DNA of 64,000 nucleotides. Origin: Candidatus Competibacter phosphatis. Lineage in GTDB: Bacteria > Pseudomonadota > Gammaproteobacteria > Competibacterales > Competibacteraceae. The DNA lies in assembly GCF_012939995.1 (NCBI RefSeq), contig NZ_SPMZ01000004.1, positions 1-64,000 of the forward strand, given 5' to 3'. Both the position numbers and the translations under genes were made by a program. Positions 55,035 through 61,570 of this stretch are shown in pieces (within the stretch, counting starts at the first letter, position 1; every line of letters begins with the position of its first letter). Below the pieces are notes generated by a model that saw only the letters and a program-made list of their open reading frames with translations, did not search any database and was not told the DNA's origin.

Positions 55035-55535
55035 CTAGATCGCCGCAACCGGCGCGGCACGACGCGGCGTCAGGGGAAAACCAAGCCTATGCAGCGTGTC
55101 CACCAGACACGCCACCGCGTGTTCCACCACGGCCGCCACTTCGGGCGACAGCTCGATTCCCAATTCCAGATCGACCGGCACCACCCCGACCAGAGTGAAT
55201 GTGGTCGGCGCTTCTTCCATCAGGATCAAGGTCGCTAGCACCTCCGCTAAACCCAACTGATGCGGAGAGAAGCGCGCTTGAAACAAAGCCGGCACTTCAG
55301 CATCGGCCAATTTTACCACCGACCCGGGCGGCGCACCGGTTTGCACCGCATCGCACACCAGCAGATGATCGCAACCGGCCAGGGTGTCCAGTAGTTCCAT
55401 GCCAGTGGTGCCGCCGTCGACCACCTCGACCACCGCCGGTAGGACGTAGCGCGCAGCCAGCGCCTCGACCACCCGGACGCCGACCCCCTCGTCGCGCAGC
55501 AGGATGTTGCCGAGACCCAAGACCACGATTCTCAT
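55035..55535 (-). CDS. hybD: hydrogenase maturation endopeptidase
   Basis: HybD-type proteases cut the C-terminal tail from the large subunit after nickel insertion. The 166 residues show MRIVVLGLGNILLRDEGVG (first metal-binding Glu), VEVVDGGTTGMELLDTLAG (Asp) and the later FSPHQLGLAEVL segment with the His ligand. The ATG at 55535 overlaps the hybC stop by one base (TGATG), so it is coupled to its substrate. Its target is predicted to be the tail after His553 of HybC. Confidence 0.93.
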   Translation of the reverse strand: MRIVVLGLGNILLRDEGVGVRVVEALAARYVLPAVVEVVDGGTTGMELLDTLAGCDHLLVCDAVQTGAPPGSVVKLADAEVPALFQARFSPHQLGLAEVLATLILMEEAPTTFTLVGVVPVDLELGIELSPEVAAVVEHAVACLVDTLHRLGFPLTPRRAAPVAAI

Positions 55536-57241
55536 CAGAACGCTTTCACCTGGACGGTGGAACGCCGACGAGTGTCGGTCAGGTGGATCGCGCAAGCCAA
55601 GCAGGGATCGAAGGAATGCACCGTGCGCAACACTTCCAAAGGCAGTTCGGGATCGGCGACCGGATTATCGACCAGCGATGCCTCATACGGCCCCAGCGCA
55701 TCGGCGTCGTCGCGTGGGCCGGCGTTCCAGGTGCTGGGCACCACTGCCTGATAGTTCTTGATCTTGCCGTTCTCGATCACCGTCCAGTGCGACAAGACCC
55801 CGCGCGGCGCTTCGTGATAACCGAAACCGCGAATCTCGCCCTTGGGAAACACCGGCCGGTTGAAGGTGGTGAAATCCCCCTTGGCGATGTTGTTGATCAA
55901 CAGTTGCCACTGATTTTGTAGCGATTCCAGCAACACCGCGCAACGTACCGCTCGGGCGGCGATCCGGCCGATGGTCGAGTGCAGCGCCTCGACCGGGATC
56001 GGCGAGCCGGCCACCGCGCCGGCAATGTCGAGCAAGCGTTTGAGATGGCGTTGGGTCGGCTCATGGCCGGCGGCAACCATGGCCAACACGTTCGCCAGCG
56101 GCCCCACCTGGACTCGCTGGTCGTAAAAAGTGGGCGCCTTGACCCAGGAATACTTGCCATCGTCCTGGAAGGCGGTGTGATGCGGGTGGGTCTGACCCTC
56201 GTAGGGATGGCGTGCCGCGTCGTTGCCTTTGTACTGATACCAAGCGTGCTTGACGCTCTCCTTGACCCCGTCACGAAAGTAGGCGTCCCGATAGCTGGCG
56301 ATCGGCTTGAATTGGGATAGATCGCCCTTGGGTACATAACCGCCGGGTAGTTCGAACTGCGTGCCCTTGGTATCCAGCGGCAGGTCGGGTACCGACAGAT
56401 AGTCGGTAACACCGGCGCCGTGGCGGGTCCAGTCGGCGTACAGCGCGCCCACCGCCGCTACATCGGGAATCATCGCTTGATTGACGAATTCGCCGAGCTT
56501 GTCGATCTCCGCCTTGATGGCGAACAGCCGTTCCAGAGTCAGCGTGGATTGGCTGTCCGGGTTGATCGGGTTGGCCACTCCACCAACGGCCAGGTTCTGG
56601 ATGTGAGGGGTCTTCGAACCCAAAATGGCGACAATGCGGTTGGCGATACGCTGATACTCCAGCGCCTGCAAATAATGGGTCGCCGCCAACAGGTTCACCT
56701 CTGGCGGCAGCTTCATCGCCGGATGACCCCAATAACCGCTAGCGAACACTCCCAACTGGCCGCTACCGACGAAGGCCTTGAGCTTCTCCTGGATCTGGCG
56801 AATCTCCGGCAAGCCGTTGCGGCGGTAGTCGGACAAACTGGCCCCCAGCTTGGCCGCGCCCTCGGGGCTGGCCGACAAGGCCGAGACGATATCGACCCAG
56901 TCGAGCGCCGCCAATTGATAAAAATGCACGATGTGATCGTGAATGCCATGCGCGGCGACGATCATGTTGCGGATGTACTGAGCGTTGAGCGGCACCTCCA
57001 GATCCAGGGCATTCTCGACCGCGCGCACCGACACGATGGCGTGAACCGTGGTACAAACGCCGCAGATGCGCTGAGTAAACAGCCAGGCGTCGCGCGGGTC
57101 GCGGCCCTGCAAGATGATCTCGATGCCACGCCACATCTGCCCAGACGACCAAGCGTTACTCACCTTGCCGTTGTTAACCTCGCAGTCGATCCGCAGATGA
57201 CCCTCGATGCGGGTGATGGGATCAATGGTTATTCTGGCCAC
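55535..57241 (-). CDS. hybC: [NiFe]-hydrogenase large subunit
   Basis: The catalytic subunit of a membrane-bound uptake hydrogenase. The 568 residues contain RICGVCTTVH (Cys60, Cys63, His67) and DPCLACAIH (Cys547, Cys550, His553), which bind the Ni-Fe site. A 15-residue C-terminal tail after His553 (LTDTRRRSTVQVKAF) is the expected HybD-cleaved peptide. The N-terminus ITIDPITRIEGHLRIDCEV is typical of group 1 enzymes. The gene order hybOABCD matches E. coli hydrogenase-2 (group 1c), which couples H2 oxidation to quinone reduction. Export occurs as a partner of the Tat-targeted small subunit. Confidence 0.95.
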   Translation of the reverse strand: MARITIDPITRIEGHLRIDCEVNNGKVSNAWSSGQMWRGIEIILQGRDPRDAWLFTQRICGVCTTVHAIVSVRAVENALDLEVPLNAQYIRNMIVAAHGIHDHIVHFYQLAALDWVDIVSALSASPEGAAKLGASLSDYRRNGLPEIRQIQEKLKAFVGSGQLGVFASGYWGHPAMKLPPEVNLLAATHYLQALEYQRIANRIVAILGSKTPHIQNLAVGGVANPINPDSQSTLTLERLFAIKAEIDKLGEFVNQAMIPDVAAVGALYADWTRHGAGVTDYLSVPDLPLDTKGTQFELPGGYVPKGDLSQFKPIASYRDAYFRDGVKESVKHAWYQYKGNDAARHPYEGQTHPHHTAFQDDGKYSWVKAPTFYDQRVQVGPLANVLAMVAAGHEPTQRHLKRLLDIAGAVAGSPIPVEALHSTIGRIAARAVRCAVLLESLQNQWQLLINNIAKGDFTTFNRPVFPKGEIRGFGYHEAPRGVLSHWTVIENGKIKNYQAVVPSTWNAGPRDDADALGPYEASLVDNPVADPELPLEVLRTVHSFDPCLACAIHLTDTRRRSTVQVKAF

Positions 57242-57257
57242 GGACAGTCTCCGATCG

Positions 57258-58428
57258 TCATGGTTGGGCCTGATGGGCGCCGTGCAGCACCGGCAGGGTC
57301 TTGATGAACAGCAAATAGAGCATGATTTCCAGACAGATGACGCCGATGGTGATCATCAGCTCCGGCGCCGAGGGGAAATAGGTCCAGCCATTGCCAGGCC
57401 GCACGGCCATCAGGTAGGCGTTAAGCCGATACAACGAACCGCCGGCGAGCAGGGAGACCGCTGCCAGAAACTGCCAGCGCTGGCGGGTCCGGCGATGCGA
57501 AACCAGTACGAAGAGAGGCACCAGGAACAGCGCGGTCTCGATCAGGAATAGATTGCCGTCCCAATCGCCGGCGAAGGCCAAACCCAGATAACCGCGATAG
57601 GCCAGATCGCCCCAGCGCAGCAGCAAGTAGCCCGCCAACAGGCCGGCGACGACCCGCGCCAGCCGCGCGAACAACCTCGCCTCGGACGGTGTCTTGAAGG
57701 CCCGATTGACCAGGGTGGCTTCCAGCATCACCACGCCGTAGCCCATGGCCAGTGCTGAAATCAAAAACAACAGCGGCAGCCAGATTGTGTACCACAGAGG
57801 AGAGAGCTTGGAGCCCATGATCAGCAATACCGAGCCCAGCGAGGACTGGTGCATGGTCGGCAGCAGCACCCCGATCGCAATCAGCACGTACATATACTTC
57901 TTCAGGAAAGCCTGGAGCTTGTCCAGGCCATACCGTTGCTTGAAGCTTCCCGGCATCCGCTCCAGAAACGCCGGCCAGAACTCCAGCCACAGCACCGTGA
58001 TGTAGGCCATGACGCACAGCCCCACTTCCAGAATCACCGAATTCGGCTGAGCGTACCAGGGCAGCAACAGATTGAAGGCGTTCCAGTAGCGGCCGAGGTC
58101 GATCATCACCGCCAGACCCGCCAACGTGTAGCCGAACACCCCACCGAGCAAGGCCGGCCGCATCAGCGGGTGATAAACGTTGCGGTTGAAGATGTAGACC
58201 AGCAGCGCCATGGCGAAGCCACCGCAGCCGAAAGCCGTGCCGATCACCACATCCAGCACCACCCAGGTCCCGATGGGATAACCGTTGCTCATATGCGAAA
58301 CATCGCCCATCCCGAACAAAAAAGCGCCGCAAAATGAAATACGCCGCGATCAGCAGGAAGAGACCGAGGATCAGAAACGGTTTGGTGACCACCTTGCCGC
58401 CAAGCGGCCGATGAACGACTGCCGTCAT
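57258..58428 (-). CDS. hybB: HybB-type (NrfD family) quinone-reactive membrane subunit, one frameshift
   Basis: HybB is the polytopic integral membrane subunit that passes electrons from HybA to the quinone pool. The N-terminal part, MTAVVHRPLGGKVVTKPFLI, is in one frame; the rest, FGMGDVSHMSNGYPIGTWVV onward, in another. Removing one A from the six-A run 58318-58323 joins them and gives 389 residues, almost the E. coli length. Nine to ten hydrophobic segments are present, with GRYWNAFNLLLPWYAQPNSV and LPTMHQSSLGSVLL as family signatures. The start overlaps the hybA stop (ATGA). The shift is most likely a sequencing error. Confidence 0.9.
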
Positions 58429-59441
58429 GATGGCCGCTCCTCATCGTCTTTGTGCCGTTCTTCGTCACTCTTGACATTGCGCCGGGCCAAGACCACTAGA
58501 CCGCCGAGCAAGGCCAGCGGCGCGATCATGCCCTTGTAGAGCGTATGCTGCATTCCTTCGGAAACGGCGGCGAAGGAGTGATCGGGTAGCTTGGGCAGAC
58601 CCAGCTTTTCATGGGGCACACCGGTCAGATAGCGCACCTGGGTACCGCCGGATTCGGTCTCGCCGTAGATGTGCGGCTGATACTCGCCGACCGGCGCTAC
58701 CTGGCCGGACCGATCGCCGCTCAGCTTGCCGCGCGGGAACTCGTACAGTTCGCCGGGCTTGAGGGCCATGCGCCGCTCCGCCTCTTTCTGCAAGTCCTCG
58801 ACCAACCCGAACAGCGAGGCGCCGGTCGGGCATACGTCGCAGCAGGCCGGGAGCTTGCCCTGTTTCTGCAAGTGGTTGCAGAACTGGCACTTGGCGATCC
58901 GACCGAACGGCTGATCGAACTGATACTGCGGCACGTTGAACGGACAACCGTAGACGCAATAGCGGCAACCGATGCAGGCATCCGGGTTGTGAGTAACGAT
59001 GCCGGTGATTGGGTCCTTGCGCATGGCGCTGACCGGGCACACCGAAATACAGGACGGATCGACGCAATGCAGGCAGTGGCGCTTGACGAAGGCGTAGCCA
59101 TCGACCTCACGGTCCTTCTGAGTCATGGCGCCGTTCTGGTAAACCCGGATCACGTTCAGCGTCTTGCCGGAAATGTCTTCCGCAGTATCCCAGGTTCCTT
59201 CGTTCCAATCGGCCAGGCGTTGCGGTTGTTCGACCGGCATGCCATTGGCTTCCTTGCAAGCGGCGACGCAGGCTTTGCAACCGATGCACTGAGTCGAGTC
59301 GTACAGCATCCCCACCGCCTTGGGCGGCAAGGTCTTTGGCTCACGCCGATCGAATGGCGCGGCATCGGCGATTGGCGCGGCGGCGGCGGTGGCGGCGGCA
59401 CCGACGGCGCCCCGCAGGAACTGGCGACGATTGATCCCCAT
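58425..59441 (-). CDS. hybA: HybA-type ferredoxin subunit with Tat signal
   Basis: A periplasmic electron-transfer protein with four [4Fe-4S]-type Cys clusters. The 338 residues start MGINRRQFLRGAVGAAATAA, a Tat signal (RRQFL). The Cys groups are CIGCKACVAACKEAN, CLHCVDPSCISVCPVSA, CIGCRYCVYGCPFNVPQ and CQFCN...ACCDVCPTGA. A C-terminal hydrophobic helix (APLALLGGLVVLA) anchors it to the membrane. AGGAGGG six bases before the ATG at 59441 fixes the start. It connects the HybO/HybC core to HybB. Confidence 0.94.
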   Translation of the reverse strand: MGINRRQFLRGAVGAAATAAAAPIADAAPFDRREPKTLPPKAVGMLYDSTQCIGCKACVAACKEANGMPVEQPQRLADWNEGTWDTAEDISGKTLNVIRVYQNGAMTQKDREVDGYAFVKRHCLHCVDPSCISVCPVSAMRKDPITGIVTHNPDACIGCRYCVYGCPFNVPQYQFDQPFGRIAKCQFCNHLQKQGKLPACCDVCPTGASLFGLVEDLQKEAERRMALKPGELYEFPRGKLSGDRSGQVAPVGEYQPHIYGETESGGTQVRYLTGVPHEKLGLPKLPDHSFAAVSEGMQHTLYKGMIAPLALLGGLVVLARRNVKSDEERHKDDEERPS

Positions 59442-59452
59442 GACGCACCCTC

Positions 59453-60619
59453 CTATCGTTGCGAGGTATCGTGCTCGGAGGCGGCGGATTCGTCCTTCTG
59501 GTCCATGCCGCGCAGGGCCATCGCGCCCGCGCCCACCGCTAGCCCAGCGACGCCGGCCACGACCGCCGCTGCTGCTGGCGTGACACCCTGGCCCTTGGGC
59601 GCGTTCACCACCGGAAAGGCGGTCGGCGGCGTGAAGGTCTTGACCTTCGCCAGGGCATGGAGCGGCTTGGTGAACCCCACGCCTTCCTCGGTGCAGCCGA
59701 AGCAGGGATGGCCGATACCCACCGGCCAGTTGCCTTCGCCGACATCGCCGAAGCCGATGGCCGGACAATTGGCATGGGTCTCCGGCCCCTTGCAGCCCAG
59801 CTTATACAGGCACCAACCTTGGCGATGACCGAAATCGCCGTATTCCAGGGCAAAGCGGCCAGCGTCGAAATGCGGGCGCCGCTCGCAGTTTTCGTGGATC
59901 AGCCGCCCGTAGGCGAATTTCGGCCGGTTCTTGACATCCAGTCCCGGTGGCTTGCCGAAGGTCAGCAGATAGAGGACGGTGGACAAAAAGTTGTAGGGAT
60001 TGGGTGGGCAGCCAGGAATGTTGATCACGGTTTTTCCGGGCAGCACTTCATGCACCGGCTTGGCCTGGGTCGGGTTGGGGTCGCTGGAGGGCACACCGCC
60101 CCAGGAGGCGCAGGAACCGATGGCGATAATCGCCGCCGCACCTTCGGCCGTTTCTCGGACTGTCTCCAGGATCGGCTTGCCGGCGACCATGCAGTAGACG
60201 CCGCCATCCTTGGTCGGAATCGACCCGTCCACCACCAACACGAACTTGCCCCAGTTCTCCTTCATCGACTTGGCCCGGTACGCCTCGGCCTGATGGCCGG
60301 CGCCCGCGCACAGGGCCTCGTGATAATCCAGCGAGATCATGTCGAGGATCAGGGTTTCGACGGTCGGATGGTAGGCGCGCAACAGTGACTCGGTGCAGCC
60401 GGTGCACTCCTGCGCCGACAGCCAGATGACCGGCGGCCGGGCTGCGGCGGTGACGGCGGCGGCGATGCGCGGCCCCATCAGCGACGATAGCCCCAAGGTC
60501 GCGGCGACACCGGTGCAATAGGTCAGGAACTGACGACGGGTCAGCCCGCCGAGCGTGCCCTCGTAACCGTCTGGATCGTGGACGGCATGGTCAAGATCGG
60601 TCTCGCTGACGACATTCAT
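59453..60619 (-). CDS. hybO: [NiFe]-hydrogenase small subunit
   Basis: The small subunit holds three Fe-S clusters and carries the Tat signal for the heterodimer. The 388 residues begin MNVVSETDLDHAVHD, with TRRQFLTYCTGVAA as Tat motif near residue 27. AQECTGCTESLLR binds the proximal cluster; GSCASWGG, GCPPNP, HENCERR, CLYKLGCKGP, CPAI and GHPCFGCTE supply the other ligands. A C-terminal hydrophobic helix (AAAVVAGVAGLAVGAGA) serves as membrane anchor, as in HybO. The ATG at 60619 is chosen; the upstream in-frame alternatives lie within the promoter. It is the first gene of the hyb operon. Confidence 0.94.
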   Translation of the reverse strand: MNVVSETDLDHAVHDPDGYEGTLGGLTRRQFLTYCTGVAATLGLSSLMGPRIAAAVTAAARPPVIWLSAQECTGCTESLLRAYHPTVETLILDMISLDYHEALCAGAGHQAEAYRAKSMKENWGKFVLVVDGSIPTKDGGVYCMVAGKPILETVRETAEGAAAIIAIGSCASWGGVPSSDPNPTQAKPVHEVLPGKTVINIPGCPPNPYNFLSTVLYLLTFGKPPGLDVKNRPKFAYGRLIHENCERRPHFDAGRFALEYGDFGHRQGWCLYKLGCKGPETHANCPAIGFGDVGEGNWPVGIGHPCFGCTEEGVGFTKPLHALAKVKTFTPPTAFPVVNAPKGQGVTPAAAAVVAGVAGLAVGAGAMALRGMDQKDESAASEHDTSQR

Positions 60620-60634
60620 CACCCGTTTTCCCCC

Positions 60635-60694
60635 ACAAATTTGGCCATTTGTAAAGTTAGCGGGGAGCCAATACGACGGGTTGACGATCATCAA
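60635..60694 (-). promoter_or_regulatory. FNR-type box and promoter ahead of hybO
   Basis: TTGACGATCATCAA at 60681-60694 (TTGATGATCGTCAA on the coding strand) fits the FNR/DNR consensus TTGAY-N4-RTCAA. Its centre is about 31 bases upstream of the TAACTT -10-like hexamer (60659-60654), the spacing of a class II activator site near -41.5. A second inverted repeat, ACAAAT-N6-ATTTGT (60635-60652), lies just downstream, close to the expected start site. Confidence 0.65.
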
Positions 60695-60729
60695 TTTTTA
60701 TGGATTTTTTTTGGCCGTCCCCGGCAGTC

Positions 60730-61458
60730 CTAATCCAGTAAGGAAGGCCTGATTTCATGCAGGAGCGAGGTGGGATGGCTCACGCAAACGGTGCGTCCCG
60801 AAAAGCGGGCTACGCCGTCCTCCTCCAGCCGGCCGATGATTCGAGACAAGGTTTCATGCCGTGCGCCGATCATGGAGGCGAGGTCGCGCCGCGACAACGG
60901 TAACTCCATCACCCGGCTGCCGTCGGTGGCGGTCCGGCCGTGGCGGTTCATCAACGCCAGCAGCAGGTGGACAAACTTGGTGCGGTTGGAAAGCGTCGCG
61001 TTCCGTACCAGCTTGTCGTGCGCGTCGTCCACATCGGTCACCACCCGGCGGAGGAACTGCTGGCCCAAGGTCGGGTTTCTTTCCAACAAAGTCTGGACGG
61101 TGTGCCTGTCGATGAAACAAATTTTGCTCGGTCCCAGCGCTTCGGCGCTGGAACGACGTTCCTCGTCGAGCAACACGCCGCGATAGCCCAGGGTACCGCC
61201 AGGGTAAACAAGGTGGAGCAGAATCGAGTTGCCCGCCGCGTCGATCTTGCGAACGGCGGCCCCACCCGAGACGATGCAATAAACACCATGGCTAGGCTCA
61301 CCGATCGCAAAGATCGACTCGCCGGCATGATATTTTCGGCACTTCTTTGCTTGTGTCAGCAGATTGAGCTCTTCATCGCTCAAAACGCTCCACTCGTTGT
61401 GCTCGCGTGGCAGGCACTCAAAACAATTGACGCCAGGCATGATCTTGCGTCGTTCCAC
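60730..61458 (-). CDS. Crp/Fnr-family transcriptional regulator
   Basis: A 242-residue regulator with an N-terminal cyclic-nucleotide-binding-like beta barrel (YHAGESIFAIGEPSHGVYCI), a dimerisation helix, and a C-terminal winged helix. The recognition helix RHETLSRIIGRLEEDG has the E-x-x-S-R pattern used by FNR and CRP to read TTGA/TGTGA half-sites. Cys12 and Cys15 (NCFEC) and Cys114 recall FNR cluster ligands, but the third N-terminal Cys of FNR is missing, so an oxygen-labile [4Fe-4S] cluster is uncertain. The start is GTG at 61458, after GGAGGGTGAGG. It sits directly upstream of hybO on the same strand and is divergent from the cytochrome gene. Confidence 0.88.
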   Translation of the reverse strand: MERRKIMPGVNCFECLPREHNEWSVLSDEELNLLTQAKKCRKYHAGESIFAIGEPSHGVYCIVSGGAAVRKIDAAGNSILLHLVYPGGTLGYRGVLLDEERRSSAEALGPSKICFIDRHTVQTLLERNPTLGQQFLRRVVTDVDDAHDKLVRNATLSNRTKFVHLLLALMNRHGRTATDGSRVMELPLSRRDLASMIGARHETLSRIIGRLEEDGVARFSGRTVCVSHPTSLLHEIRPSLLD

Positions 61459-61556: not shown

Positions 61557-61570
61557 TGAACTATAGTTCA
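61557..61570. promoter_or_regulatory. 14-bp perfect palindrome between regulator and cytochrome genes
   Basis: TGAACTATAGTTCA is a perfect palindrome 24 bases upstream of the cytochrome start codon and 99 bases from the regulator start. The TGA half-sites and two-fold symmetry suit a Crp/Fnr-type or other dimeric regulator. It may be an operator for the divergent pair. Confidence 0.4.

Follow-up and report, generated by a model that had tools for sequence, protein, structure and literature searches.

A conserved FNR-type box upstream of hybO in Candidatus Competibacteraceae and its probable reading by a linked Crp/Fnr-family regulator

The window analysed here, a stretch of 64,000 nucleotides, comes from contig 40 of a Candidatus Competibacteraceae draft genome (4.39 Mb, 121 contigs). 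Members of this family are glycogen-accumulating bacteria of wastewater plants, whose life consists of cycling between anoxic and aerated phases. The window carries on its minus strand a hyb operon with the gene order hybO, hybA, hybB, hybC. The first gene, hybO (59453-60619), encodes the [NiFe] hydrogenase small subunit (TIGR00391, E 7.6e-143; PRK10468, E 6.9e-166) and is followed by hybA (58425-59441) for the hydrogenase 2 iron-sulfur protein (PRK10882, above cut-off), hybB (57258-58319) for an NrfD-type membrane subunit (PF03916; PRK10881, E 2.8e-128) and hybC (55535-57241) for the [NiFe] hydrogenase large subunit (PF00374; PRK10467, E 1.6e-263). Upstream of hybO and in the same direction lies a gene for a Crp/Fnr-family regulator of 242 residues (60730-61458, minus strand), our candidate reader of the promoter described below; the 110-base gap between its stop codon and hybO contains both an FNR-type box and a -10 element.

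The box, an exact match to TTGAY-N4-RTCAA, occupies 60681-60694 on the minus strand, where it reads TTGATGATCGTCAA toward hybO and TTGACGATCATCAA on the plus strand. It is followed by the -10 element TAACTT, the reverse complement of 60654-60659, at a distance of 21 bases edge to edge and 31 bases centre to centre. Two A-tracts lie on the other side of the box on the same strand, a proximal one immediately upstream (60695-60699) and a distal one (60705-60712) that may serve as an UP-like element contacted by the alpha subunit of RNA polymerase. From the position of the -10 element and a box centre near -41.5, transcription is predicted to start at 60646-60648. A promoter scan of the hybO upstream site returned no sigma-70 promoter with a -35 element at 16-18 bases. 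Sigma-54 control of hybO was considered by eye only, and no GG-N10-GC was seen between the box and hybO. The start of hybO is assigned to the ATG at 60619; a longer frame opening with a TTG at 60694 was dropped, given that relatives do not keep that frame because the distance from box to ATG differs between them.

The spacing was compared with that of FNR-dependent promoters of E. coli MG1655, in which an exact box is followed by TANNNT at 21 bases in nirB and narK and at 22 bases in narG; in dmsA and nrfA the box carries one mismatch and TANNNT is absent at 18-25 bases, so that three of the five promoters examined provide the yardstick. A published genome-scale study lists the FNR sites of nirB, narK and narG at -41.5; of 23 FNR-activated promoters whose start is known, 19 have their site centred at -41.5 +/-4 (PMC3688515). 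The initial annotation had proposed a consensus match upstream of hybO, a distance of about 31 bases between box centre and TAACTT centre, and a class II geometry, and each of these held up, the last through the combination of box, -10 element and 21-base spacer found in all family promoters compared (below) and through the identical spacer of nirB and narK. While sharing the exact TTGAT-N4-ATCAA-type box and the TANNNT at 21 or 22 bases, the promoter described here differs from nirB, narK and narG in its target operon and in that their reader is canonical FNR, which was not found in 17 of the 18 family genomes that carry the box. Moreover, no such box occurs within 330 bases of hybO in E. coli, even with up to 2 mismatches allowed, and control of hybO in Competibacteraceae therefore does not simply follow the E. 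coli pattern.

We searched for hybO in 59 genomes, and 21 genomes of the family, including that of the window, contained it at 82% identity or higher. Three of these had too little upstream DNA and were left out of the box count, namely G005 (53 bases), G033 (5 bases) and G027 (hybO truncated); in G005, the box adjoins the regulator at a contig end. All 18 remaining genomes have the exact box, followed by TANNNT at a spacer of exactly 21 bases, any other spacer being found in at most two of them. The eight bases of the outer arms of the box are invariant (mean information 2.0 bits), as are an AAA at offsets -4 to -2 in the proximal A-tract and an AAAA at offsets -16 to -13 in the distal one, both counted from the start of the box, whereas the spacer between box and -10 averages 0.57 bits per base; these promoters have thus diverged outside the kept elements. 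No conserved -35 element was present at the expected place in the alignment of the 18 promoters. The regulator gene lies within the 1.5 kb flank of hybO in 12 of the 18 genomes and on a separate contig in the other six (G001, G003, G015, G020, G023 and G030), in which other genes flank hybO or the regulator. The box remains with hybO in these six, and it is therefore a promoter element. Conservation across all 18 orthologous promoters constitutes strong sequence evidence for the box.

The regulator carries the Pfam domains cNMP_binding and HTH_Crp_2 and the recognition helix E202-T-L-S205-R206, confirming the initial suggestion that the gene behind the box encodes a Crp/Fnr protein with an E-x-x-S-R helix. 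FNR-type regulators are its best matches among solved structures (8qto, E 2.9e-13). Nevertheless, it scores 61 bits against the canonical FNR model NF008365, for which the cut-off is 228, and is thus not canonical FNR; other NCBIfam matches are also far below cut-off. Four cysteines (C12, C15, C61 and C114) are invariant across 19 orthologs, and the helix motif HETLSR is kept in all 18 intact ones, the nineteenth (L039) being broken in that region. The [4Fe-4S] cluster of FNR is ligated by C20, C23, C29 and C122, of which C20, C23 and C122 align with C12, C15 and C114; the alignment places N21, not a cysteine, at the position of FNR C29. The protein thus resembles canonical FNR/ANR (NF008365) in its Crp/Fnr fold, its E-x-x-S-R helix and cysteines at three of the four ligand positions, and differs in lacking a cysteine at the C29 position and in possessing the extra invariant C61. 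Judged from these residues, an iron-sulfur cluster with a different fourth ligand is possible. The sensor domain is of poor quality in two AlphaFold models, too poor for placing the cysteines. Close matches to the regulator come from metagenome-assembled genomes of Candidatus Competibacteraceae, Competibacter and Contendobacter; outside the family, among 369 genomes drawn from the class, matches reach 43% (G246) and 34% (G129) identity. Separately, a perfect palindrome, TGAACTATAGTTCA, lies at 61557-61570 of the window between the regulator gene and a divergent cytochrome c gene, and is exact in 5 of 18 regulator upstream regions (L016, L022, L023, L024 and L032) and partly kept in others.

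We then considered which protein reads the box. Besides the linked regulator, the genome of the window (G000) encodes two further Crp/Fnr proteins with E-x-x-S-R helices, C47 (TETVSR, with a CxxC) and C74 (PETLSR), and judging from these helices either could also read it. Across the 37 family genomes (G000-G036), close orthologs of the linked regulator occur in 20, that of the window included, canonical FNR in 7 (NF008365, E up to 1e-40), C47-type proteins in 20 and C74-type proteins in 23, the copy in G022 being a fragment. The linked-type regulator was found in all 18 box genomes, canonical FNR in 1, C47-type proteins in 11 and C74-type proteins in 15, counts from draft genomes that can miss genes and that, like the accompanying Fisher test, which is descriptive only, ignore relatedness. 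The linked-type regulator is accordingly the only one of the four FNR-type candidates found in every box genome, and G023 is the single genome with both it and canonical FNR. In G001, which is 99% complete, the FNR model retrieves the linked-type regulator and, besides it, a single protein, whose helix, RESVNK, is not of the E-x-x-S-R type. Since all 18 box genomes have the linked regulator and only one of them has canonical FNR, we infer that the linked regulator is the reader, an assignment that the co-distribution supports indirectly. Box, hybO and regulator may have been inherited together as one unit, and the co-distribution is therefore not independent evidence.

Collectively, the layout of the promoter, the degree to which it is conserved and the shared occurrence of box and regulator make it probable that the hybO box is a class II activator site, bound most likely by the linked regulator in place of the missing canonical FNR. 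The hyb operon would accordingly be driven by an activator-dependent sigma-70 promoter of class II, with the box as the activator site. An FNR-type dimer would bind TTGAY-N4-RTCAA about 41.5 bases upstream of the start, where it would substitute for the -35 element and contact RNA polymerase directly, probably assisted by contacts of the alpha subunit with both A-tracts. The dimer would in this lineage most likely consist of the linked-gene Crp/Fnr protein, standing in for the absent canonical FNR, and the regulator would raise hydrogenase expression under anoxic or reducing conditions.

The strongest competing explanation, which we regard as unlikely, accepts a real class II site and assigns it to another FNR-type protein (C47-type, C74-type or, where present, canonical FNR), with the linked regulator controlling something else. 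The FNR-type helices of C47 and C74 speak for it, as does a distant hybO locus. We inspected nine hybO loci below 70% identity, leaving out a second hybO-like copy in G012, and found an exact box within 400 bases in one of them, that of G010: TTGATTCAGATCAA is followed, after 21 bases, by TATTAT, about 350 bases before the hybO start. This genome has canonical FNR and no linked regulator; thus, the promoter design also occurs alongside canonical FNR and the linked regulator is not a prerequisite for the site, which weakens any claim that the two always go together. Against this explanation, canonical FNR is missing from 17 of the 18 box genomes, C47-type proteins from 7 and C74-type proteins from 3, and all three are missing from G001. 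Far less probable is that the bound regulator represses hybO, for instance by blocking polymerase at the -35 region. The box does overlap the -35 position, and sequence analysis does not separate activation from repression; however, neither the promoter scan nor the alignment of the 18 promoters yielded a -35 element, and the fixed 21-base spacing agrees with that of activated E. coli promoters.

The genome scan for the same box, advised in the initial annotation, identified 33 exact boxes, of which 25 lie inside open reading frames, 7 lie between them and one is the hybO box. These placements come from a simple caller biased toward GC-rich third positions, which may overlook AT-rich genes, and some of the 7 between-frame boxes may be coding. 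Within the window, three exact boxes compare with 0.18 expected in shuffles, the two others being inside open reading frames. A motif match alone was rejected as proof of function, being too weak because most of the 33 matches fall inside open reading frames. For the hybO box, it is hardly credible, despite this abundance, that the palindrome arose by chance or is simply a -35-like TTGAC, as it is kept in 18 of 18 promoters at fixed spacing, a divergence too recent to be informative is contradicted by the diverged spacer, and the TTGACN hexamer at the box start lies 29 bases from the -10 element, too far for a -35.

We also looked for a wider regulon. None of the 7 intergenic exact boxes in the genome of the window has TANNNT at 19-24 bases in either direction. 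The extended box TTGAYSATYRTCAA was also searched in 36 genomes; among the part of the listed sites that was examined, those outside hyb fell mostly in open reading frames and included no second conserved target. On this incomplete sequence evidence, the linked regulator looks dedicated to the hydrogenase.

An evolutionary scenario, which we offer tentatively as possible rather than favoured, is that one regulator replaced another at a DNA site that stayed the same. Most Competibacteraceae with the hydrogenase would have lost canonical FNR, and their unchanged hybO promoter would have passed to a lineage-specific FNR-like protein that is dedicated to the hydrogenase and has an altered set of cysteines (C12, C15, C61 and C114). 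A modified iron-sulfur cluster or some other redox cue could be the signal of this protein. G010, where canonical FNR accompanies the same promoter geometry, would represent the older state. This suggests a route by which a lineage can lose canonical FNR while keeping an FNR-type promoter. Class II FNR-type promoters are already known; what is new is the lineage-specific regulator. A [NiFe] hydrogenase structural operon under FNR-type control reportedly exists in Thiocapsa roseopersicina, where hyn depends on FnrT, a system that we liken by description only. Likewise compared by description, the FnrN-dependent hypBFCDEX genes of Rhizobium leguminosarum share an Fnr-type promoter, hydrogenase genes and low oxygen; there, in contrast, the available text reports that the Fnr-type promoter drives the maturation operon and that hupSL uses NifA (PMC3534401). 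Titles and abstract beginnings of the literature on Competibacter with hydrogenase or Fnr yielded nothing on how members of the family switch on hydrogenase. Neither this literature nor the available portions of that on FNR-type hydrogenase control, which included PMC4930944, PMC2621215, PMC3534401 and PMC9603854 and few subscription papers, described this promoter or regulator. The result is a precise model of the promoter that names a candidate regulator and is open to testing in a reporter strain; the lineage-specific regulator, and the fact that canonical FNR is nearly absent beside it, deserve an experiment.

In G246 (L157), the 43% relative of the regulator is encoded upstream of, and in the same direction as, an iron-sulfur/NrfD gene pair named by eye. 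The gap before this pair contains GTGATCTAAATCAC and GTGATCAGGGTCAC (read on either strand), which resemble GTGAT-N4-ATCAC, and another site of this kind precedes the gene for this relative; the sites are at 1365-1397 and 2282-2295. The helix of this relative is RESISR in place of HETLSR. In E. coli CRP, an arginine at the corresponding place of the helix reads the first G of GTGA. The joint change of helix and site would fit such proteins reading neighbouring sequences, in one case; no match to this ortholog was obtained in the sole other genome of the family to which G246 belongs.

Three further sites were noted in the genome of the window. On contig 29 (L138 1501-1514), an exact box, TTGACCACTGTCAA, with no TANNNT at 19-24 bases, lies 90 bases ahead of a gene with several haem-type CxxCH motifs. 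On contig 82 (L149 2258-2271), TTGATATTAATCAA lies just past genes that resemble cas4, cas1 and cas2 by eye, at a possible CRISPR leader location. Finally, contig 74 carries an exact TTGACCGGGATCAA (L148 1508-1521) between genes named by eye as norC-like and hemerythrin-like, and the same contig encodes the C74-type Crp/Fnr protein.
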